From a virus: 30,101 nt of DNA. Both the position numbers and the translations under genes were made by a program. Of this stretch, positions 6,084-14,095 are shown one piece after another; position 1 is the stretch's first letter, and every line of letters begins with the position of its first letter. The notes below the pieces were generated by a model. It had not been told where the DNA came from and did no database searches. It saw only the letters and a list, made by a program, of their open reading frames with translations. The stretch is taken from positions 1-30,101 of the IMG/VR virus record IMGVR_UViG_3300025301_000073; one strand, given 5' to 3'.

Positions 6084-6815
6084 TCACTCCAGCAATCGGG
6101 CCATACGGTCCCGTAATGGGAATAAGTTCTGGAGCGTCCGGGTCGGTGCTGCCCCGCCCTCTCCGGCATGGATAGCCGGTGGTTCGCTGGAATCCTTCGG
6201 ACGCTTGGGATATGGTTTGGAAAGGGAAGCTATCTGCTCTTTCATGGAGTCATCAAGTGGGTACAGATAACGGTATTTCCCTTCCAACGGAATCGCTATA
6301 CAGTCCCTGACCTTCGGGACATGGGTCATAACTCCAAACTGCCGAGCATATCCCGATGCAGTCACTTGCCTATCTCGATACCGCCGACCATCTGCGCTAA
6401 TATAATCATTCTTGCTTGAGGTCTTTCCACAATACATCCAGCCCGCACCTTGATAAATGCCCCCATGATGCCCCTCGTTGGTGTCCGCAAAGGATACAAT
6501 AAGCCGAAGCCCGGATTCCTTTCTTCGTAACATCGCAACAGCAATAGTCAGGATACGTGACACTGGGACTATATGAGCAGTTATAGCGACCCTAGTTAAC
6601 TCTGCAACTTCCGTTTGCTGCAACCCATAAGCCGCCCCCAGATGCGGACTAGCCCCACGGGCAAAAACTACGCATCCAATAAATTGGTCACACTCCCACA
6701 CCCCAATTCTAATTGTTGGCGGCATCGGCATGCTCTTGGAATAGTGCCAATGTTCCACCGCATACTTGGCAGCAGCGTGGGAACACCAATCGAGTTTAAG
6801 GTCTGCCTTGTTCAC
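6084..6815 (-). CDS. mom: Mom-family DNA base modification protein (GNAT fold)
   Basis: It resembles phage Mu Mom, a GNAT-fold enzyme that adds a carbamoylmethyl (acetamido) group to N6 of adenine and makes phage DNA resistant to many restriction enzymes. Visible family features are HWHYSKSMP (22-30), IGVWECDQFIGCVVFARGA (37-55), ELTRVAI (72-78), PVSRIL with S86, SFADTN with D111, and YQGAGW (121-126). The tail after about residue 195 is charged, proline-rich and probably disordered. The start is GTG (6813-6815), overlapping the ParB stop as GTGA with no ribosome site. Translation therefore probably depends on coupling, or on relief of the stem at 6792-6826. The gene is AT-richer than its surroundings: the line 6541-6600 has 27 G+C of 60. 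The chemical product cannot be predicted from sequence. Confidence 0.82.
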   Translation of the reverse strand: MNKADLKLDWCSHAAAKYAVEHWHYSKSMPMPPTIRIGVWECDQFIGCVVFARGASPHLGAAYGLQQTEVAELTRVAITAHIVPVSRILTIAVAMLRRKESGLRLIVSFADTNEGHHGGIYQGAGWMYCGKTSSKNDYISADGRRYRDRQVTASGYARQFGVMTHVPKVRDCIAIPLEGKYRYLYPLDDSMKEQIASLSKPYPKRPKDSSEPPAIHAGEGGAAPTRTLQNLFPLRDRMARLLE

Positions 6816-8081: not shown

Positions 8082-8419
8082 CATTCCCCTCCCAATACCC
8101 GCTCGATCTCCCCGTCCAGGCCGTCCGGTCTCCAGAGGAAATATTCCACGCCGGGGCATTCCGAGAGGACTTGTCCCCATTCGTCTTGTCCTGGGAGCCA
8201 GCGGTTGCCGGACTTGTTCCACCGGCCCTTGGTCAATCGGCCCTTTACCGTCTTGAGTTCCGCGAAGATAACCCGGTGCTGGGTTGGATGCACCATCCGG
8301 AGGTCTGGCTCCCCCGGCTCGGACTTCCGGGCGTCATAGGTGAATCCCACGATCCAGCCATAAGTCCGGGCCAGGGCGATGACGGTCGCCTGGAAGTCCT
8401 TCTCGGTGATGAGTTGCAT
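8081..8419 (-). CDS. VRR-NUC domain nuclease
   Basis: This 112 aa PD-(D/E)xK nuclease is of the VRR-NUC family, found alone in phages and fused to FAN1 in eukaryotes, and thought to cut branched DNA. The core is GEPDLRMVHP (D39), then IFAELKTVKG with E54 and K56 as the ExK pair, then a Gln/Trp region (PGQDEWGQVL near 76-85). A helical N-terminus (TEKDFQATVIALARTYGW) leads into the core. Such nucleases usually sit next to an SNF2-type helicase in phage genomes. Here a methyltransferase lies between the two. The ATG overlaps the methyltransferase stop as TGATG. Confidence 0.9.
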   Translation of the reverse strand: MQLITEKDFQATVIALARTYGWIVGFTYDARKSEPGEPDLRMVHPTQHRVIFAELKTVKGRLTKGRWNKSGNRWLPGQDEWGQVLSECPGVEYFLWRPDGLDGEIERVLGGE

Positions 8420-9366
8420 CAGATATCCATAGAAAATGGCACATCCTCAACCCGCTCGATATGGAGTAGATTCTTTTGTGCCTGTCTAAAATAACTCGGC
8501 TTTAGTTCTACTCCGATGCCAAGACGCCCCAGTTGGACCGCTTCGTAAACTTCGGACCCGACTCCCATAAACGGCGTGAAGACCTTCTCACCTGGGTTTG
8601 ACCAAAGCGTAACGCACCGATTGATTACGTCTAATTGCAGGGGATGTATATGCTTTTCGTCCTGTTGGTCTCTTGCTTCGCGATAGGGCAGCACCCGGTC
8701 AAGACGTATGTCATCCCAGAACGCCGAGGCGTACTGCCGCCATATCCAATGAGAATATCGGTTCTCTATTTGGTTTCCCTCCATCCCTCTCAGATGGTGC
8801 AATTCGGCGGGTACTTGTCTCTCACCAACGTATTCAGTCAATCCCACCGGGTGAACGATCGGGACCGGATTCTCTCCATGCCGCCGAAATACCAGGAGGT
8901 AATCTGCTGAGGCCACGCTGCACCGGGACGAATCCTCAATCAAACTCCGATGAGCCAAGTTTTTAGCCATTGTCCGATTACGAACGGTCAGCGGTTCCTT
9001 CCAAACGTGGTAACGAGCGATGTACTCAAATCCGATGTCTTTGTGCAGTCGGATAATATCGCCAGGAAAGTCCTTCAGAACGTCAACTCCGGTATTACCC
9101 GATGGGACGTCCATGCAATGCACCGCGGTCATTCGCCCCGGCATAGTTAGGCGGAATAATTCCTGCACCACAAATCGGTAATGCTCAAAAAATTCCTCAT
9201 AATTACGGCAGTTCGATAGATCATTTTCAGAGGACGAATAGTGATAGAGTCCGGCAAAGGGAGGCGAATATACTGATAGGTGGATGGACTCACTAGGCAA
9301 GGTGGGCATCACCTCGCAACAGTCACCCAGATAAATAGCATATTGGTCTGTGATCTCTTGATTCAT
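8419..9366 (-). CDS. Beta-class DNA methyltransferase (N4-cytosine or N6-adenine)
   Basis: The enzyme transfers a methyl group from S-adenosylmethionine to an exocyclic amino group of C or A. The catalytic motif IV, VYSPPFAGLY (SPPF at 34-37), comes first, followed by a long target-recognition region. The SAM motif I/II region comes last (FTPFMGVGSEVYEAVQ, then GIGVELKPSYF). This IV-TRD-I order defines the beta class. SPPF is common in N4-cytosine enzymes, but base choice cannot be settled. No cognate restriction enzyme is nearby. ATG at 9364-9366 overlaps the helicase stop (TAATG), and an ATG nine bases upstream (9375) is equally possible. The DNA is AT-rich for this window: 9181-9240 has 21 G+C of 60. 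Confidence 0.92.
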   Translation of the reverse strand: MNQEITDQYAIYLGDCCEVMPTLPSESIHLSVYSPPFAGLYHYSSSENDLSNCRNYEEFFEHYRFVVQELFRLTMPGRMTAVHCMDVPSGNTGVDVLKDFPGDIIRLHKDIGFEYIARYHVWKEPLTVRNRTMAKNLAHRSLIEDSSRCSVASADYLLVFRRHGENPVPIVHPVGLTEYVGERQVPAELHHLRGMEGNQIENRYSHWIWRQYASAFWDDIRLDRVLPYREARDQQDEKHIHPLQLDVINRCVTLWSNPGEKVFTPFMGVGSEVYEAVQLGRLGIGVELKPSYFRQAQKNLLHIERVEDVPFSMDI

Positions 9367-10766
9367 TACAACCATGACGGGATTGACACCTCCTCCTCAT
9401 ACTCTTGGCTACGCTTGACCGATAATGCGTCATTCATATACTGAACTAAATCTGAGAACATCTTGTCGGCAGCCTTGGATTTCCGGGCCAAGTTTTCTAC
9501 GATACGTTCGTCCGCGTCAGTACTAACGAGGTTGACCATCACCGGACTTTCCTGGCCGAATCGCCAGCATCGGCGGATCGCTTGATAATATTGCTCATAA
9601 GAATGTGATGGGAAGTAGGTCATATGGGCGCAATGTTGCCAGTTCAACCCAAAGGCTCCGATCTTGGGCTTGGTGATCAAGACCCGGATATTACCCTCTT
9701 GAAAGTCTCGGAATTTGGATTCCTTCACATCGTCCGAGTCAGACCCAGCCACTTGAACCGAACCCGGCACCATCGCCTTTAACGTATTCCCCTCGTCGTT
9801 CAAATGGCACCACATAACGGCGGGACGGGTTGTCTCGTTCACGCTTGACGCAGCGGCTTCGCACCGCTCATTTATAGTCCTTCGCCGCGCTTCCCGCTCG
9901 TCTTGTAATCCCACCGCTGCAACATCAAATAACATACCCTGTTTGACCGTTTTGGCCGCTACCACCGTTTCCTGAATATCCAAAGGCGGCAATTCAAAAC
10001 CCTGGTCATCGAAGCCTAAATCAGATGGTCGGCGGATTGCCCTTGCCCAGGAACTTACCCACCTCCAAAAGGATTGCTCGGCGTGGTGCTTGAATCGCCA
10101 TCCTCCACCATCCCAGAATCGGTTGGGGGCCGTCGTGTTTTGGTCATTTATGAAAAACTGGTTGAGCATATCAACGTAACCTAATTCCCCCAGCGCCTCA
10201 GAACTCGTCCCAAGTTCTATGTAGTCGTTCGGAGCGGCGGTGGCCGTACAAAGCAATCGATACGGCACCTTACGCATGAAGTCGGTAATTAGCGCTTTAC
10301 GCTGACCGTCAAAGGATTTTAAGATGCTGGATTCATCGCAGACGACTCCGTCAAAATCGGAGGGCGAGAAGTGATGCAACCGCTCATAATTCGTGACGGT
10401 TATCCCACATCCATGACTGCCATCTATAGATCGGGATACTTCGATGCCAAACTTCTCACCCTCAGATATTGTCTGATGCGATACGGCCAGCGGAGTTATC
10501 ACCAATACCGGCTTATTGGTTTCCCGGATTATGTTTTCTGCCCATACCAACTGCATTGGCGTCTTCCCCAGTCCGCAATCTGCGAATATACCGGACCGGC
10601 CCTTTTTAAGAGACCATTCCAGCAAGGCTTTCTGGAAGTCAAACAAGAAGTCTGGGAGATACGACCCCGCGAATCCGTGTAGTATCCCCGCCTGCCGTTT
10701 TGTATCTAAAAACCGTTTGTACTCAATCGTATCTTCTGCAATCATTCCAGGCATATACTCCTTCAT
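9366..10766 (-). CDS. SNF2-type DEAD-box helicase
   Basis: This superfamily 2 ATPase/translocase has 466 aa. Visible motifs are Walker A ADCGLGKT (GLGKT 65-69), motif II VVCDESSILK (DESS 144-147), motif III TATAAPND (174-181) and motif VI YQAIRRCWRFGQ (395-405). It is a stand-alone phage SNF2 helicase of the kind often paired with VRR-NUC, probably acting in replication, recombination or DNA remodelling. The ATG at 10764-10766 overlaps the upstream stop (ATGA). AAGGAG occurs just inside the gene, so ATG at 10752-10754 or 10743-10745 could also start it. The gene is AT-richer than its neighbours and, with the methyltransferase, looks like a recently acquired block. Confidence 0.93.
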   Translation of the reverse strand: MKEYMPGMIAEDTIEYKRFLDTKRQAGILHGFAGSYLPDFLFDFQKALLEWSLKKGRSGIFADCGLGKTPMQLVWAENIIRETNKPVLVITPLAVSHQTISEGEKFGIEVSRSIDGSHGCGITVTNYERLHHFSPSDFDGVVCDESSILKSFDGQRKALITDFMRKVPYRLLCTATAAPNDYIELGTSSEALGELGYVDMLNQFFINDQNTTAPNRFWDGGGWRFKHHAEQSFWRWVSSWARAIRRPSDLGFDDQGFELPPLDIQETVVAAKTVKQGMLFDVAAVGLQDEREARRRTINERCEAAASSVNETTRPAVMWCHLNDEGNTLKAMVPGSVQVAGSDSDDVKESKFRDFQEGNIRVLITKPKIGAFGLNWQHCAHMTYFPSHSYEQYYQAIRRCWRFGQESPVMVNLVSTDADERIVENLARKSKAADKMFSDLVQYMNDALSVKRSQEYEEEVSIPSWL

Positions 10767-11276: not shown

Positions 11277-11456
11277 TCAGAATCCCGGCATCCGGGGACG
11301 GTCCTCCAGGTCGGCCTCGATGTCCGGCGGTGCCGCTTCCCAATACCCGCATGGGCAGACCAAAAACAGGACCGGCGTGTCGTGCGGGTCCCGGCGTAAC
11401 AGCTCGACGGTCATCTCGCCGCCGCATTCGGGACAGGTCCGGCGGATGGTAGTCAT
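11277..11456 (-). CDS. Small zinc-ribbon protein (59 aa)
   Basis: The peptide starts MTTIRRTCPECGGEMTVELL and continues with VCPCGYWE, a two-knuckle zinc ribbon (CPEC...CPCG). An acidic tail follows (DIEADLEDRP). The ATG (11454-11456) overlaps the loader gene stop as ATGA. Its own stop (TGA, 11277-11279) is embedded in the ribosome site of the next gene, so the pair is tightly coupled. Probably nucleic-acid or protein binding; target unknown. Confidence 0.72.
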   Translation of the reverse strand: MTTIRRTCPECGGEMTVELLRRDPHDTPVLFLVCPCGYWEAAPPDIEADLEDRPRMPGF

Positions 11457-12307
11457 GCTCGATAGTCCTCCGCGGTGTTGATCACGACCGACACCTCCGG
11501 GAGTTCCGGGTTGCCGGCATATAACCGGGACGCCAGACGGTCGCCCATCCGGTCGGACATCGCCGCCTTGTTGAGATTGGTCGCCAAGACCATCCAGCCG
11601 CCGGAGTTATGCCGTTCCTGGACTAACGTCGTCAGTTGCTCTCGCGCCCAGTCGGTCGTGGACTCCATGCCGATGTCGTCCAGGAGAACGGTGTCCCGGC
11701 GTTGATACCACGCCATCAGGTCGTGGAGATCGTCCCCGGAGTCGGAATCGTAGGTGTGCCGAAGCCGGTTTAGAAATCTTGGACTCAGGTCGTAACGGAC
11801 GGTCCGCCCGGATTCCAGGGCTTGGCGTCCGATGGATTCCAGGAGGTGGGATTTACCCGTCCCGGTCTGGCCCACCAGTACCAACATCCTCGGCCCCTGT
11901 CGGTCGGCGAACTTTCGGGCCGCGGCCAGCATGTCGTCGGTGCCCGGACGGGCCCGGAAGTTTTCAAACGTCCTCGTTGTCCCGCCGGTCGGGAGCGCGG
12001 CCTGGGCGTGGCGAAGTTCTTCGTCCCGGCGTTGTTGTTCCTCCCGGCCCCGACATTTGCACTGGGCTTGCTGGAATATTCTCTTTGTCGGGTCACGGTC
12101 GAGAAGGATGCGCCGGACATCGGGATGGGTGATGTCGAAATACCCGCACACCGGACACTGGGAATCGTTGGGGAGCGGTTCGCCGGCAGACCGGACCCGT
12201 TTGAAGATGTCTCTCAGCGGTTCCATCGCGCCCGAGACCTTGACCGGCTTGGGGTAGGCGTGGAAGTCGGTGTCTCCCGGTTGGAGTACGTCGGGCGGTA
12301 TCGTCAT
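11453..12307 (-). CDS. DnaC/IstB-like AAA+ helicase loader
   Basis: This 284 aa ATPase probably loads the host replicative helicase (DnaB) at the phage origin. The N-terminus has a zinc site, QCPVCGYFD (51-54) and QCKCRG (83-85), as in phage DnaC-like loaders. The AAA+ core has Walker A GQTGTGKSHLL (146-156), Walker B TVLLDDIGME (206-215), sensor 1 LATNLN (241-246) and a basic RLASRLYAG region near the end for the arginine finger. It lies directly downstream of the replication initiator, the arrangement known from lambda O-P and from DnaD/DnaC-type phages. No phage DnaB helicase or primase is visible, which supports use of host enzymes. Confidence 0.92.
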   Translation of the reverse strand: MTIPPDVLQPGDTDFHAYPKPVKVSGAMEPLRDIFKRVRSAGEPLPNDSQCPVCGYFDITHPDVRRILLDRDPTKRIFQQAQCKCRGREEQQRRDEELRHAQAALPTGGTTRTFENFRARPGTDDMLAAARKFADRQGPRMLVLVGQTGTGKSHLLESIGRQALESGRTVRYDLSPRFLNRLRHTYDSDSGDDLHDLMAWYQRRDTVLLDDIGMESTTDWAREQLTTLVQERHNSGGWMVLATNLNKAAMSDRMGDRLASRLYAGNPELPEVSVVINTAEDYRA

Positions 12308-12310
12308 GGT

Positions 12311-13141
12311 TTATCCTCTCGCCTTCCGGGCGTCTTGCTCGGCCTTCATCGCCACGAAGTCCTGGGAGTTGACCGAGAAGACCTTGGATGGCGGACTCGA
12401 CCGCGGAGATATGGCATCCCTTCGCGCCCAGTTCTGGAATGTCGCCCACGGATCGCGGCCCTTATTTTTGGGTTGGGCGATAAATGCCTTAACTCCGTAA
12501 GCGGTGACCTCGGCCAGGTCGGCGGTTATGCCTTTCTTGGATAACCACGCCTCGGCGTCGGCCAGAGAGGTTGTAAACCTTGGGAGTCCTGATAAGACAT
12601 CGAACCAATCGGGCGATGGGTCCGACGGCAAGTCGGACATCTCCTCTGACGGTTCTTCTGATGATTCTTTGATGATTACTGATGGTTCGGGTGACATAGC
12701 TATGTCACCCTTTAGCGTCTCCGGTGTCACCCTTTGTGTCTCAGATGTCACCCTTTCCGCGTCCTGGGTGACACCCTTTATATCCGCCTCGCCGTCAATG
12801 GGTGTCATATTGTCACCCTTTATATCCGCCAATATCTGGCGTTCTGTTCTCGGTCGGAAGGGCGGTTTCTGCTTGCCGGCGGATGGGTCGAGTCTATAGA
12901 CGACGGTGTTATGCCGACCGCCAGCCACCGACCCGGTGGGGATCGCCAGCTTTTGGTCCCGGAGGTCTTTGAGGGTCCGCTGGACCTGGCGGACTCCGTA
13001 CCCCGTCTTCCACGCCAACCGGCCAACGCTTGGATAGCAATAACCGTCGTCGTCGGCGTGGTCTGCCAATGCCAGGAATATCGATTGGGCGTTATGCGGT
13101 AAATCCAGTTCCCAGACCTGGGACATTATCTTGACGCTCAT
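12311..13141 (-). CDS. Replication initiator (winged-helix, DnaD/lambda O-like layout)
   Basis: This 276 aa protein should recognise the phage origin. Residues about 8-85 form a helix-turn-helix/winged-helix domain of the type at the N-terminus of phage replisome organisers (MSQVWELDLPHNAQSIFLAL near 6-25, then GVRQVQRTLKDL and NTVVYRL). A low-complexity linker (about 105-185) rich in Thr, Glu, Pro and Ser follows. Its DNA contains the iterons at 12689-12830. The C-terminal helical part (about 190-276) includes WATFQNWARRD and could contact the loader. ATG at 13139-13141 has GGGAGGGGAGG upstream. Initiator-then-loader order and internal iterons match lambda O logic; homology to O itself is not claimed. 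Confidence 0.85.
   Translation of the reverse strand: MSVKIMSQVWELDLPHNAQSIFLALADHADDDGYCYPSVGRLAWKTGYGVRQVQRTLKDLRDQKLAIPTGSVAGGRHNTVVYRLDPSAGKQKPPFRPRTERQILADIKGDNMTPIDGEADIKGVTQDAERVTSETQRVTPETLKGDIAMSPEPSVIIKESSEEPSEEMSDLPSDPSPDWFDVLSGLPRFTTSLADAEAWLSKKGITADLAEVTAYGVKAFIAQPKNKGRDPWATFQNWARRDAISPRSSPPSKVFSVNSQDFVAMKAEQDARKARG
12645..12688. other. Low-GC repeat stretch beside the iterons (possible unwinding element)
   Basis: Directly next to the iteron palindrome the plus strand has repeated TCTGA/GATGATT words (TTCTTCTGATGATTC, then GATGATTACTGATGG). This is a local drop in GC inside a GC-rich gene, on the same side as the AT-rich segment of lambda-type origins relative to the iterons. 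Functional assignment is inference. Confidence 0.4.
12689..12830. repeat. Iteron cluster, candidate replication origin
   Basis: Within the initiator gene the 11-mer TGTCACCCTTT occurs at 12703, 12725, 12746 and 12811, with a one-mismatch copy (TGACACCCTTT) at 12769. Start-to-start spacings are 22, 21, 23 and 42 bp, about two helical turns. A perfect 22-bp palindrome with half-site GGGTGACATAG covers 12689-12710. A 17-bp direct repeat ending TTTATATCCGCC lies at 12772-12788 and 12814-12830. The inverse copy GGGTGTCA is at 12800-12807. Codons in the repeats encode a variable linker, so the DNA pattern appears to be what is selected. Confidence 0.8.
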
Positions 13142-13179
13142 CCCGTCGTCCTCCCCTCCCGTTAGATAACTCTCGGAGT

Positions 13180-13198
13180 GGGCCGATAAGCTCGGCCC
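13180..13198 (-). other. Perfect hairpin ahead of the initiator gene
   Basis: Seven-base arms GGGCCGA and TCGGCCC flank a five-base loop in the 71-bp gap between 13213 and the initiator start. There is no T tract, so it is not a typical terminator. It could be an RNA stabiliser, an attenuator or a protein site. Confidence 0.4.
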
Positions 13199-13212
13199 AG
13201 ACCGGCAATCGT

Positions 13213-13404
13213 CTAGCGTTCCGGCTTCTCGTCCCTCCGTCGCGCCCAGTCCTTGAGATATGCCTGGAAGTCGTCCACCACATCCTCGGAGCGGTCATAG
13301 TCCACAGCGGCCTGGTCGAGGATGTCGAACAACGCCAGCATCAGGTCGATGTGGTCGTCGAAGACGTAACCGGGCCGCGTGGACGTTCTAGCGTTGGCTT
13401 GCAT
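13213..13404 (-). CDS. Small acidic helical protein
   Basis: This 63 aa protein is rich in Asp and helical (DDHIDLMLALFDILDQ, then SEDVVDDFQAYLKDW) with a basic C-terminal tail (ARRRDEKPER). GGAGGG six bases before the ATG at 13402-13404 supports the start. The first 17 bp overlap the ssDNA-binding-like gene. No family recognised. Confidence 0.65.
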   Translation of the reverse strand: MQANARTSTRPGYVFDDHIDLMLALFDILDQAAVDYDRSEDVVDDFQAYLKDWARRRDEKPER

Positions 13405-14095
13405 CGAATACCCTCCAGCCTTCCCGATTCTCGACGCAGTACGAATCCTCCTCGTCGTCGCCCTGTTTCGGGAGTATGTGTCCCCAGTTGCCCGTCTTGC
13501 TTTGCCGCCGTTCCTGGTCGTGTTGGTAGCAGTAATGGAGCGGGGCCACCGGAGCCTGGTTGACGTTGCGATAAATCCAGTCCCGGCATTCTAGGAGCCA
13601 GGACGTATAATCACGGCCCTCCGGGACCGGCCAAATCTCGTACATAATCGCATCGTTGGCGTGATTCTGGCATTGGCCCAACGCCGCCGGGTTGGGAGGC
13701 GGTTCCATGTTGGGCGCCGGAGTCCGGGCCGGTGGCGCCGGGGCCGGGTTGGGTTTCGGCGGGGCTTGGACTGGCGGCGCCTCGTCGGACGCTACCCTCT
13801 CCCCATCTTCGGCGATCCATGTCGGCTCGATGGACACCATGTCCCAGAAGTAGTCGGTCGAATATCTGCCGTCTTTGTTGGCTTTGAGGTTGCCTTGATT
13901 GATGGTGATGATGGCGGTCTCGCCCACCTCAAAGCCCTGGACGGTCTCCCAGTCCTGACCGTATAGGGTCAAGTCGAACTTGGAGCCGGGGAGCTTCCAG
14001 TCCACCACCATCGCCCAGCCGTCCCGGTTCTGCTGTTTGCCCTTGGACTTCACCTCGGCGGTGAAGTGATATTGACTCTCGATGGCGGTGGTCAT
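13388..14095 (-). CDS. Putative OB-fold ssDNA-binding protein
   Basis: Of 235 aa, residues about 8-92 have the strand pattern of an OB fold: YHFTAEVKSKGKQ, WAMVVDWKLPGSKFDLTLYG, VGETAIITINQGN, then YFWDMVSIEP. A Pro/Ala-rich linker (about 105-135) follows, as in many single-stranded-DNA-binding proteins. The C-terminal third is unusual: Cys/His-containing (GQCQNHANDAIMYEIWP, LECRDWIYRN, LHYCYQHDQERR) and acidic (QGDDEEDSY), so it may hold a metal site. The position inside the replication module supports the call. No conserved SSB tip motif is seen, so the assignment is by fold impression and context only. Confidence 0.5.
   Translation of the reverse strand: MTTAIESQYHFTAEVKSKGKQQNRDGWAMVVDWKLPGSKFDLTLYGQDWETVQGFEVGETAIITINQGNLKANKDGRYSTDYFWDMVSIEPTWIAEDGERVASDEAPPVQAPPKPNPAPAPPARTPAPNMEPPPNPAALGQCQNHANDAIMYEIWPVPEGRDYTSWLLECRDWIYRNVNQAPVAPLHYCYQHDQERRQSKTGNWGHILPKQGDDEEDSYCVENREGWRVFDASQR

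Follow-up and report, generated by a model that had tools for sequence, protein, structure and literature searches.

Known origins and the plan of the locus

An origin of replication placed within the gene of its own initiator is an already known plan, described for phage lambda (PMC5043065, PMC7466680) and for phage SPP1, whose oriL in gene 38 comprises initiator-bound direct repeats and an AT-rich unwinding element (PMC6316719). The present analysis concerns the replication initiator gene of the IMG/VR virus record IMGVR_UViG_3300025301_000073, taken at its whole length of 30,101 bases (the window), where portal, terminase, tape-measure and head-protease genes were identified by Pfam and PHROG matches. 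Judging from sequence comparisons, this gene quite probably carries a phage replication origin on the lambda plan, with a helically phased unwinding element that is shared among phages. A lambda-like origin at this place had been proposed in an initial annotation of the sequence, and the comparisons favour it.

The lambda origin lies in the middle of initiator gene O, with an unstable stretch alongside and the loader gene next, and the same plan is found in the window. Four iterons are annotated in lambda, at steps of 20, 24 and 23 bp, versus mostly 21-23 bp in the window. The two loci also differ. The lambda iterons are inverted repeats binding O dimers, whereas the 11-mer of the window (AAAGGGTGWCA on the gene strand) has no full dyad and presents inverted copies at the two ends only; lambda O contains neither the array word described below nor a phased AACC chain; the loader of the window is DnaC-like and not P; and its low-GC stretch is milder than the A+T-rich stretch of lambda. 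The likeness to SPP1 oriL is one of described layout, repeats and an unwinding element within the initiator gene.

Among plasmids, the RepA_N replicons (pSK41) and pPR9 present an N-terminal winged helix-turn-helix (HTH), origin boxes in the centre of rep and a linker encoded by the origin. pPR9 is functional as a replicon, and in it the pSK41 counterpart has given way, as one block, to an HTH_36 N-terminal part of phage-like type together with its origin (PMC5703833); the passages available from that paper make no mention of an AACC array. The window differs in belonging to a phage and in its initiator, where no RepA_N domain was identified (Pfam, E up to 0.01). Iterons beside an unwinding element of short regular repeats are also found in ori2 of Vibrio cholerae and oriV of RK2, replicons unrelated to the window, and there a single strand is held by the initiator: RctB holds one strand of six ATCA repeats (PMC11711613) and TrfA binds just one of the two strands of the RK2 element (PMC4081077), described as GGTT repeats (PMC10316083).

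A description of the array was not found in a search of open-access full texts, and whole-word searches of the same texts for AACCATCA, AACCGTCA, TGATGGTT and TGACGGTT returned two unrelated papers only. On that basis two elements are apparently new: a conserved phased word as the presumed mark of the unwinding site in phages of both Proteobacteria and Actinobacteria, and the statistical association of iterons with the recognition helix.

The initiator gene and its iterons

The initiator matches HTH_36 (PF13730; E 3.1e-13, 49.7 bits against a curated cut-off of 25) and the families phrog_1032, replication initiation (E 1.3e-20), and phrog_391, 'O-like' (E 6.5e-15). In the AF2 model it comprises an N-terminal winged HTH, a linker at residues 110-165 with pLDDT of about 50, predicted to be disordered, and C-terminal helices at 178-275. 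The origin-like repeats fall in the linker-coding part, the iterons beginning about 320 nt into the gene.

12311 to 13141, minus strand: initiator gene, 276 aa (Pfam HTH_36, PHROG matches, AF2 model)
12811 to 12821, minus strand: iteron 1, AAAGGGTGACA
12797 to 12807, plus strand: inverted iteron copy with 1 mismatch, facing iteron 1
12769 to 12779, minus strand: iteron 2, AAAGGGTGTCA
12746 to 12756, minus strand: iteron 3, AAAGGGTGACA
12725 to 12735, minus strand: iteron 4, AAAGGGTGACA
12703 to 12713, minus strand: iteron 5, AAAGGGTGACA
12689 to 12710, no strand: perfect palindrome of 22 bp, two 11-nt arms without a gap

The candidate origin contains five exact copies of the 11-mer, TGWCACCCTTT on the plus strand, whose successive starts differ by 22, 21, 23 and 42 bp, in agreement with the 21-23 bp steps and one double step of the initial annotation. 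The count of five given there holds for exact copies, the inverted copy with one mismatch being a sixth. The word is absent elsewhere in the window: up to one mismatch, 6 matches were identified in the 30,101 bases, against 0.62 expected and a maximum of 3 in 100 shuffles. When the codons of the gene were permuted 5,000 times, keeping protein and codons, no permutation gave more than 2 iterons, versus the 5 observed. The palindrome that had been reported at one end is present, and an arm of 11 was attained in 38 of the 5,000 permutations. As an element of its own it was rejected: one arm coincides with the core of iteron 5, the other is an inverted iteron half or copy, and the whole equals an inverted iteron pair. 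It is exact in the window and in the relatives L003 and L005, and imperfect in L004 and L006.

A second phased array in the low-stability stretch

Past the palindrome, the gene strand carries AACCATCA, AATCATCA, AATCATCA and AACCGTCA, spaced by 10, 11 and 12 bp (consensus AAYCRTCA; TGAYGRTT on the plus strand). Three of these words end in ATCA and one in GTCA, and in the same codon permutations four words of the form A[AG][CT]C[AG]TCA, as observed, were attained in 2 of 5,000. The array occupies the lower-GC stretch noted in the initial annotation, where its repeats had been missed; the stretch itself is real, with 40% GC in 40-bp windows at gene nt 441-500 versus 57% in the whole gene.

12680 to 12687, minus strand: array word 1, AACCATCA
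12670 to 12677, minus strand: array word 2, AATCATCA
12659 to 12666, minus strand: array word 3, AATCATCA
12647 to 12654, minus strand: array word 4, AACCGTCA
12642 to 12701, no strand: stretch of low stability (40% GC), proposed as the unwinding element

It is most unlikely that these sites are operators serving the initiator to repress or time the operon to which it belongs, the origin being elsewhere. Some initiators bind their own genes and the inverted iteron pairs look operator-like; however, the sites stand some 320 nt inside the gene, as five direct repeats of near-constant phase, and are followed by the low-stability array in the same order as in the lambda and SPP1 origins. The repeats were also considered as structured RNA and rejected as such, with no Rfam family at gathering score within 12000-13800.

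The array word across IMG/VR

IMG/VR was searched for three AACCRTCA words, 1-4 bases apart, with no other criterion. At least 120 stretches match, and an open reading frame (ORF) covers the match in 119 of those listed. Among the matches listed, HTH_36 was identified in at least 81 of the 119 ORFs, up to 85 fit one phage replication-initiation PHROG and 83 fit a local HTH profile; the remaining ones are mostly truncated initiators or simple repeats. The orientation of the array within the gene is identical in all 83 initiators of this list. With the reversed word, 41 stretches and 37 usable ORFs were obtained, none of them with HTH_36. For the scrambled word ACCARTCA there were 78 stretches; among its 68 usable ORFs, 15 had HTH_36 and 14 DnaD_N, because this word is part of the variant array word AACCAGTCA of enterobacterial phages. 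It was rejected as a neutral control, and the reversed word is the sole clean one.

Clustered at 70% identity, the initiators form 63 clusters. Four or more iteron copies stand ahead of the array in 61 of the 63 genes (codon-shuffle null 21.9%) and five or more in 54, against 44 of 630 codon shuffles, the iteron finder having a high codon-shuffle background. Iteron steps are 21-23 bp in 150 of 277 cases and 16-18 bp in 69. Two classes of step, of about 17 and 22 bp, are found in the upstream part of the iteron arrays of many initiators, often together in one gene and with the 22-bp class nearest the array. The array starts 10-27 bp beyond the last iteron in 54 of the 63 clusters. The 40-bp window at the array has a GC content of 0.44, versus about 0.60 around it, and is a minimum of duplex stability: in the median gene just 1.7% of the gene windows are less stable.

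Initiators selected by their HTH, and named phages

A further sample was obtained with two HTH domains as queries and comprises 160 initiators in 68 clusters at 80%. Both seed domains had themselves been found through the array, and the sample is thus unbiased in spacing and not in ancestry. A chain of at least three words, each allowed one mismatch and lying roughly one or two helical turns from the next, was identified in 55 of the 68 clusters, versus 7.0% when codons were shuffled. Steps between exact words were of 10 bp (12 of 75), 11 bp (36) and 12 bp (16), the next being 20-22 and 32 bp. Phased AACC chains of three or more are present in 53 clusters, with a null of about 9-10%, and AACC ranks first of the 256 tetramers, followed by GAAC, which overlaps it (28 clusters), ACCA (15) and ATCA (10).

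Thirteen clusters lack the word chain, and seven of these, KGA-type genes, bear AACCAARAGC words at steps of about 10 bp instead. This clade (L437, L424, L392, L390, L396, L436 and L412) combines ordinary AAAGGGTGCA iterons with the AACCAARAGC form of the array word. At residue 6, six of its seven members have T, and 20 of 23 sister clusters bearing AACCRTCA have M; as a possible array-reading residue it is a lead only, confounded by descent.

The named genes are 24, 23 from protein searches plus lambda O. An AACC chain of at least three was identified in 12: Vibrio phages 1.236.O and 1.036.O; Pseudomonas phages PseuP_224, PotUPM1, LESphi3, MD8 and D14B; Stenotrophomonas CUB19, Streptomyces TurkishDelight, Arthrobacter Galaxy and Kepler, and SfV, the last being the only weak one (shuffle rate 0.123). 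Six more contain a chain of two: Sphingopyxis VSN-002, Bordetella PHB09, VaK, MT839944, Salmonella SF6 and S137. PHB09 has three exact words, with one step of 9 bp.

Conservation and module exchange in close relatives

Protein searches identified 12 related loci in IMG/VR and one in GTDB genomes. L003-L006 carry the iterons of the window at unchanged gene positions; the initial annotation had named the loss of the repeats from relatives that keep the initiator as evidence against its proposal, and these four retain them. The other relatives contain different iterons: AAAAGGGTGCCA in L007; AAAAGGCGGACAT with AAAGGGGGACA in L008-L012; AAACCCGGAACA in L013 and L015; and CCCCTGACGCC in L014. These lie behind the HTH-coding part, at steps mostly of 17 or 21-24 bp, and in L008-L015 a different HTH is accompanied by different iterons at about 21-22 bp. 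The array words are retained in relatives whose iterons differ greatly, the array being more widely conserved than the iterons.

Third codon positions were compared in the window, L004, L005 and L006, with the sites set by the words of the window itself. They vary in 0 of 23 cases in the iterons and 1 of 12 in the array; for the remaining linker the figure is 12 of 34, and for the HTH-coding part 45 of 96 (Fisher p 8e-7 for the sites against all others, 5.6e-4 against the linker alone). This agrees with the earlier suggestion that the linker peptide is dictated by the DNA. The converse, in which selection would act on short repeated peptides (KGD, RVT, EPS) of a disordered linker as protein-binding motifs and the DNA repeats would simply follow, has very little probability. 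The linker is of low complexity and predicted disordered, and in one alignment, itself partly selected by the DNA word, EPS hardly varies at the array. However, the window iterons are translated in two frames (KGD/KGV and RVT), the frozen third positions lie at the sites, and codon-shuffled genes seldom yield phased chains. The array words of the 63 clusters stand in codon phase 1 (113), phase 2 (53) and phase 0 (48), with all three frames used in 30 genes and two in 27; the array as protein repeats was rejected, being translated in all three frames.

DNA identity was measured in four gene segments. The window and L005 share 89% in the HTH, 90% in the iterons and 49% in the C-terminal part, while the window and L007 share 53%, 46% and 93%, and L005 and L008 share 58%, 66% and 87%. 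In these natural swaps the iterons accompany the HTH, C-terminal parts change separately and the array is the boundary. The array might accordingly be taken as a mere recombination junction where phages exchange N-terminal/iteron and C-terminal modules, an improbable explanation to which both the coincidence of module boundaries with the array and the comparable block swap in pPR9 (PMC5703833) lend some ground. Plain homology leaves unexplained the phasing at 10-12 bp (AACC chains at 7-9, 13-15 or 16-18 bp steps were found in none of the 68 HTH-selected clusters), the stability minimum, and the lineage variants with a changed word and the same step. The junction and unwinding roles of the array could both hold.

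In the initiator of L007 (L007:2416-3450) an insertion between HTH and iterons is an HNH endonuclease domain (residues 119-169; E 1e-7 to Pfam HNH), with one iteron right behind it; this is possibly an endonuclease lodged in an origin.

Co-variation of iterons and recognition helix

The initial annotation had proposed a comparison of HTH and iterons among relatives, and its outcome was positive. The set comprises 75 of 85 initiators (63 pattern-search clusters, 8 relatives and 14 named genes), after L049, L079, L088, L100, L255, L264, L265, L266, the lambda gene and L007 were dropped for too few or unclear iterons, which were located by a simple program. Similarity of iteron consensus was compared with identity of the recognition helix, corrected for identity in the rest of the domain. 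The partial r is 0.322 and none of 1,000 permutations reaches it. In a sliding window of 9 residues the best segment is YGVRQVQRT (residues 49-57), with 0.288, and 200 permutations gave no more than 0.153. Iterons and recognition helix co-vary more closely than overall identity would account for; since the permutation tests ignore descent, more weight attaches to the finding that the signal is confined to one helix.

12956 to 12994, minus strand: HTH recognition helix, codons 50-62 (helix 50-62 in the AF2 model; the co-variation peak YGVRQVQRT begins here)

Proposed opening of the origin

In the proposed mechanism, the winged-HTH N-terminal domain would bind the five iterons, about two helical turns apart, and the inverted copies at both ends, and the bound complex would strain the adjoining low-stability DNA. 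Opening would take place at the AAYCRTCA array, with one word per helical turn, and one array strand would then probably be held by the initiator. The C-terminal domain and the DnaC-like loader could finally put the host helicase at the opened array.

Several observations weigh against this proposal. The array of the window mixes AACC and AATC, so that its strict AACC chain is 1 and its AAYC chain 4. Array GC is just moderately low. The GC skew, suggested earlier as a check, shows no clear turn at the candidate origin and gives no support. Among the 15 loci of window and relatives, 11 genes are usefully distinct, mostly from one metagenome series. No phased AACC chain was found in 6 of the 24 named genes (Yersinia YeP1, Vibrio p42, Bifidobacterium PMBT6, Morganella IME1369_02, Vibrio Rostov 7 and lambda O), and the array is therefore common, not universal, among HTH_36 initiators.

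A broader statement, for which the chances are about even, is that HTH_36-class phage origins share one opening signal, AACC/GGTT once per helical turn, repeated 3-5 times, 10-27 bp past the iterons. It would be retained while iterons, C-terminal domains, loaders and host phyla change, and its reader would be either a conserved region of the initiator or a universal replication protein of the host. If true, the origins of very many phages and prophages could be located from sequence. The iteron specificity would be predictable from few residues, and with the helix/iteron link both initiator specificity and origin position would be predictable for thousands of phages and prophages. The natural sequence variants would also serve for asking how an initiator chooses which strand it holds once the origin is open.

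Candidate readers of the array and partner genes

The genes behind array-bearing initiators are varied: P-like loaders (L051, L046), DnaC-like loaders (L131 and the window), DnaB-like helicases (L088, L070, L109, L077) and a primase/helicase (L103), while 2 of the 10 scanned matched no profile of assigned function. The scan covered 10 of 61 downstream ORFs, and the ORF picker often took a distant or wrong-frame ORF. Because the partner types vary, a single loader type is unlikely as the reader of the array. In L070:4923-5771 and similar loci, a DnaB-like helicase gene follows the initiator in place of a loader.

11453 to 12307, minus strand: DnaC-like AAA+ helicase loader, following the initiator gene in the operon (E 1.4e-37 to the PHROG family of DnaC-like helicase loaders; Pfam IstB/DnaA ATPase matches)

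Reading of the array by a host factor and not by the phage initiator is rather unlikely, although the array is common to phages with differing iterons, C-terminal parts and loaders. A weak argument against it, fitting a phage-coded reader better, is that the words differ inside one host genus, AACCATCA in Vibrio 1.236.O and AACCAGTCA in VaK, and are alike across phyla, as in Streptomyces and Arthrobacter phages. The different words of the two Vibrio phages mildly favour the initiator as the putative reader. AACCATCA includes ATCA and its complement includes GGTT, a four-letter likeness to the ori2 and RK2 repeats that may be due to chance.

Structural matches and other genes of the window

A PDB profile search with the initiator gave weak matches only, the best being a DnaD N-terminal domain (E 0.0036). 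In Foldseek the RepA_N-type structures 4pql, 5kbj and 4pt7 are among the top rows, all weak (E 0.012 to 0.044); 4pt7 reaches Z 8.2 over 92 residues, level with many winged-helix proteins. Elsewhere in the window, an N6/N4 DNA methylase gene is located at 8419-9375, and a Mom-family protein (E 2.1e-42) is encoded at 6084-6815 on the minus strand, which suggests that the phage DNA is modified.
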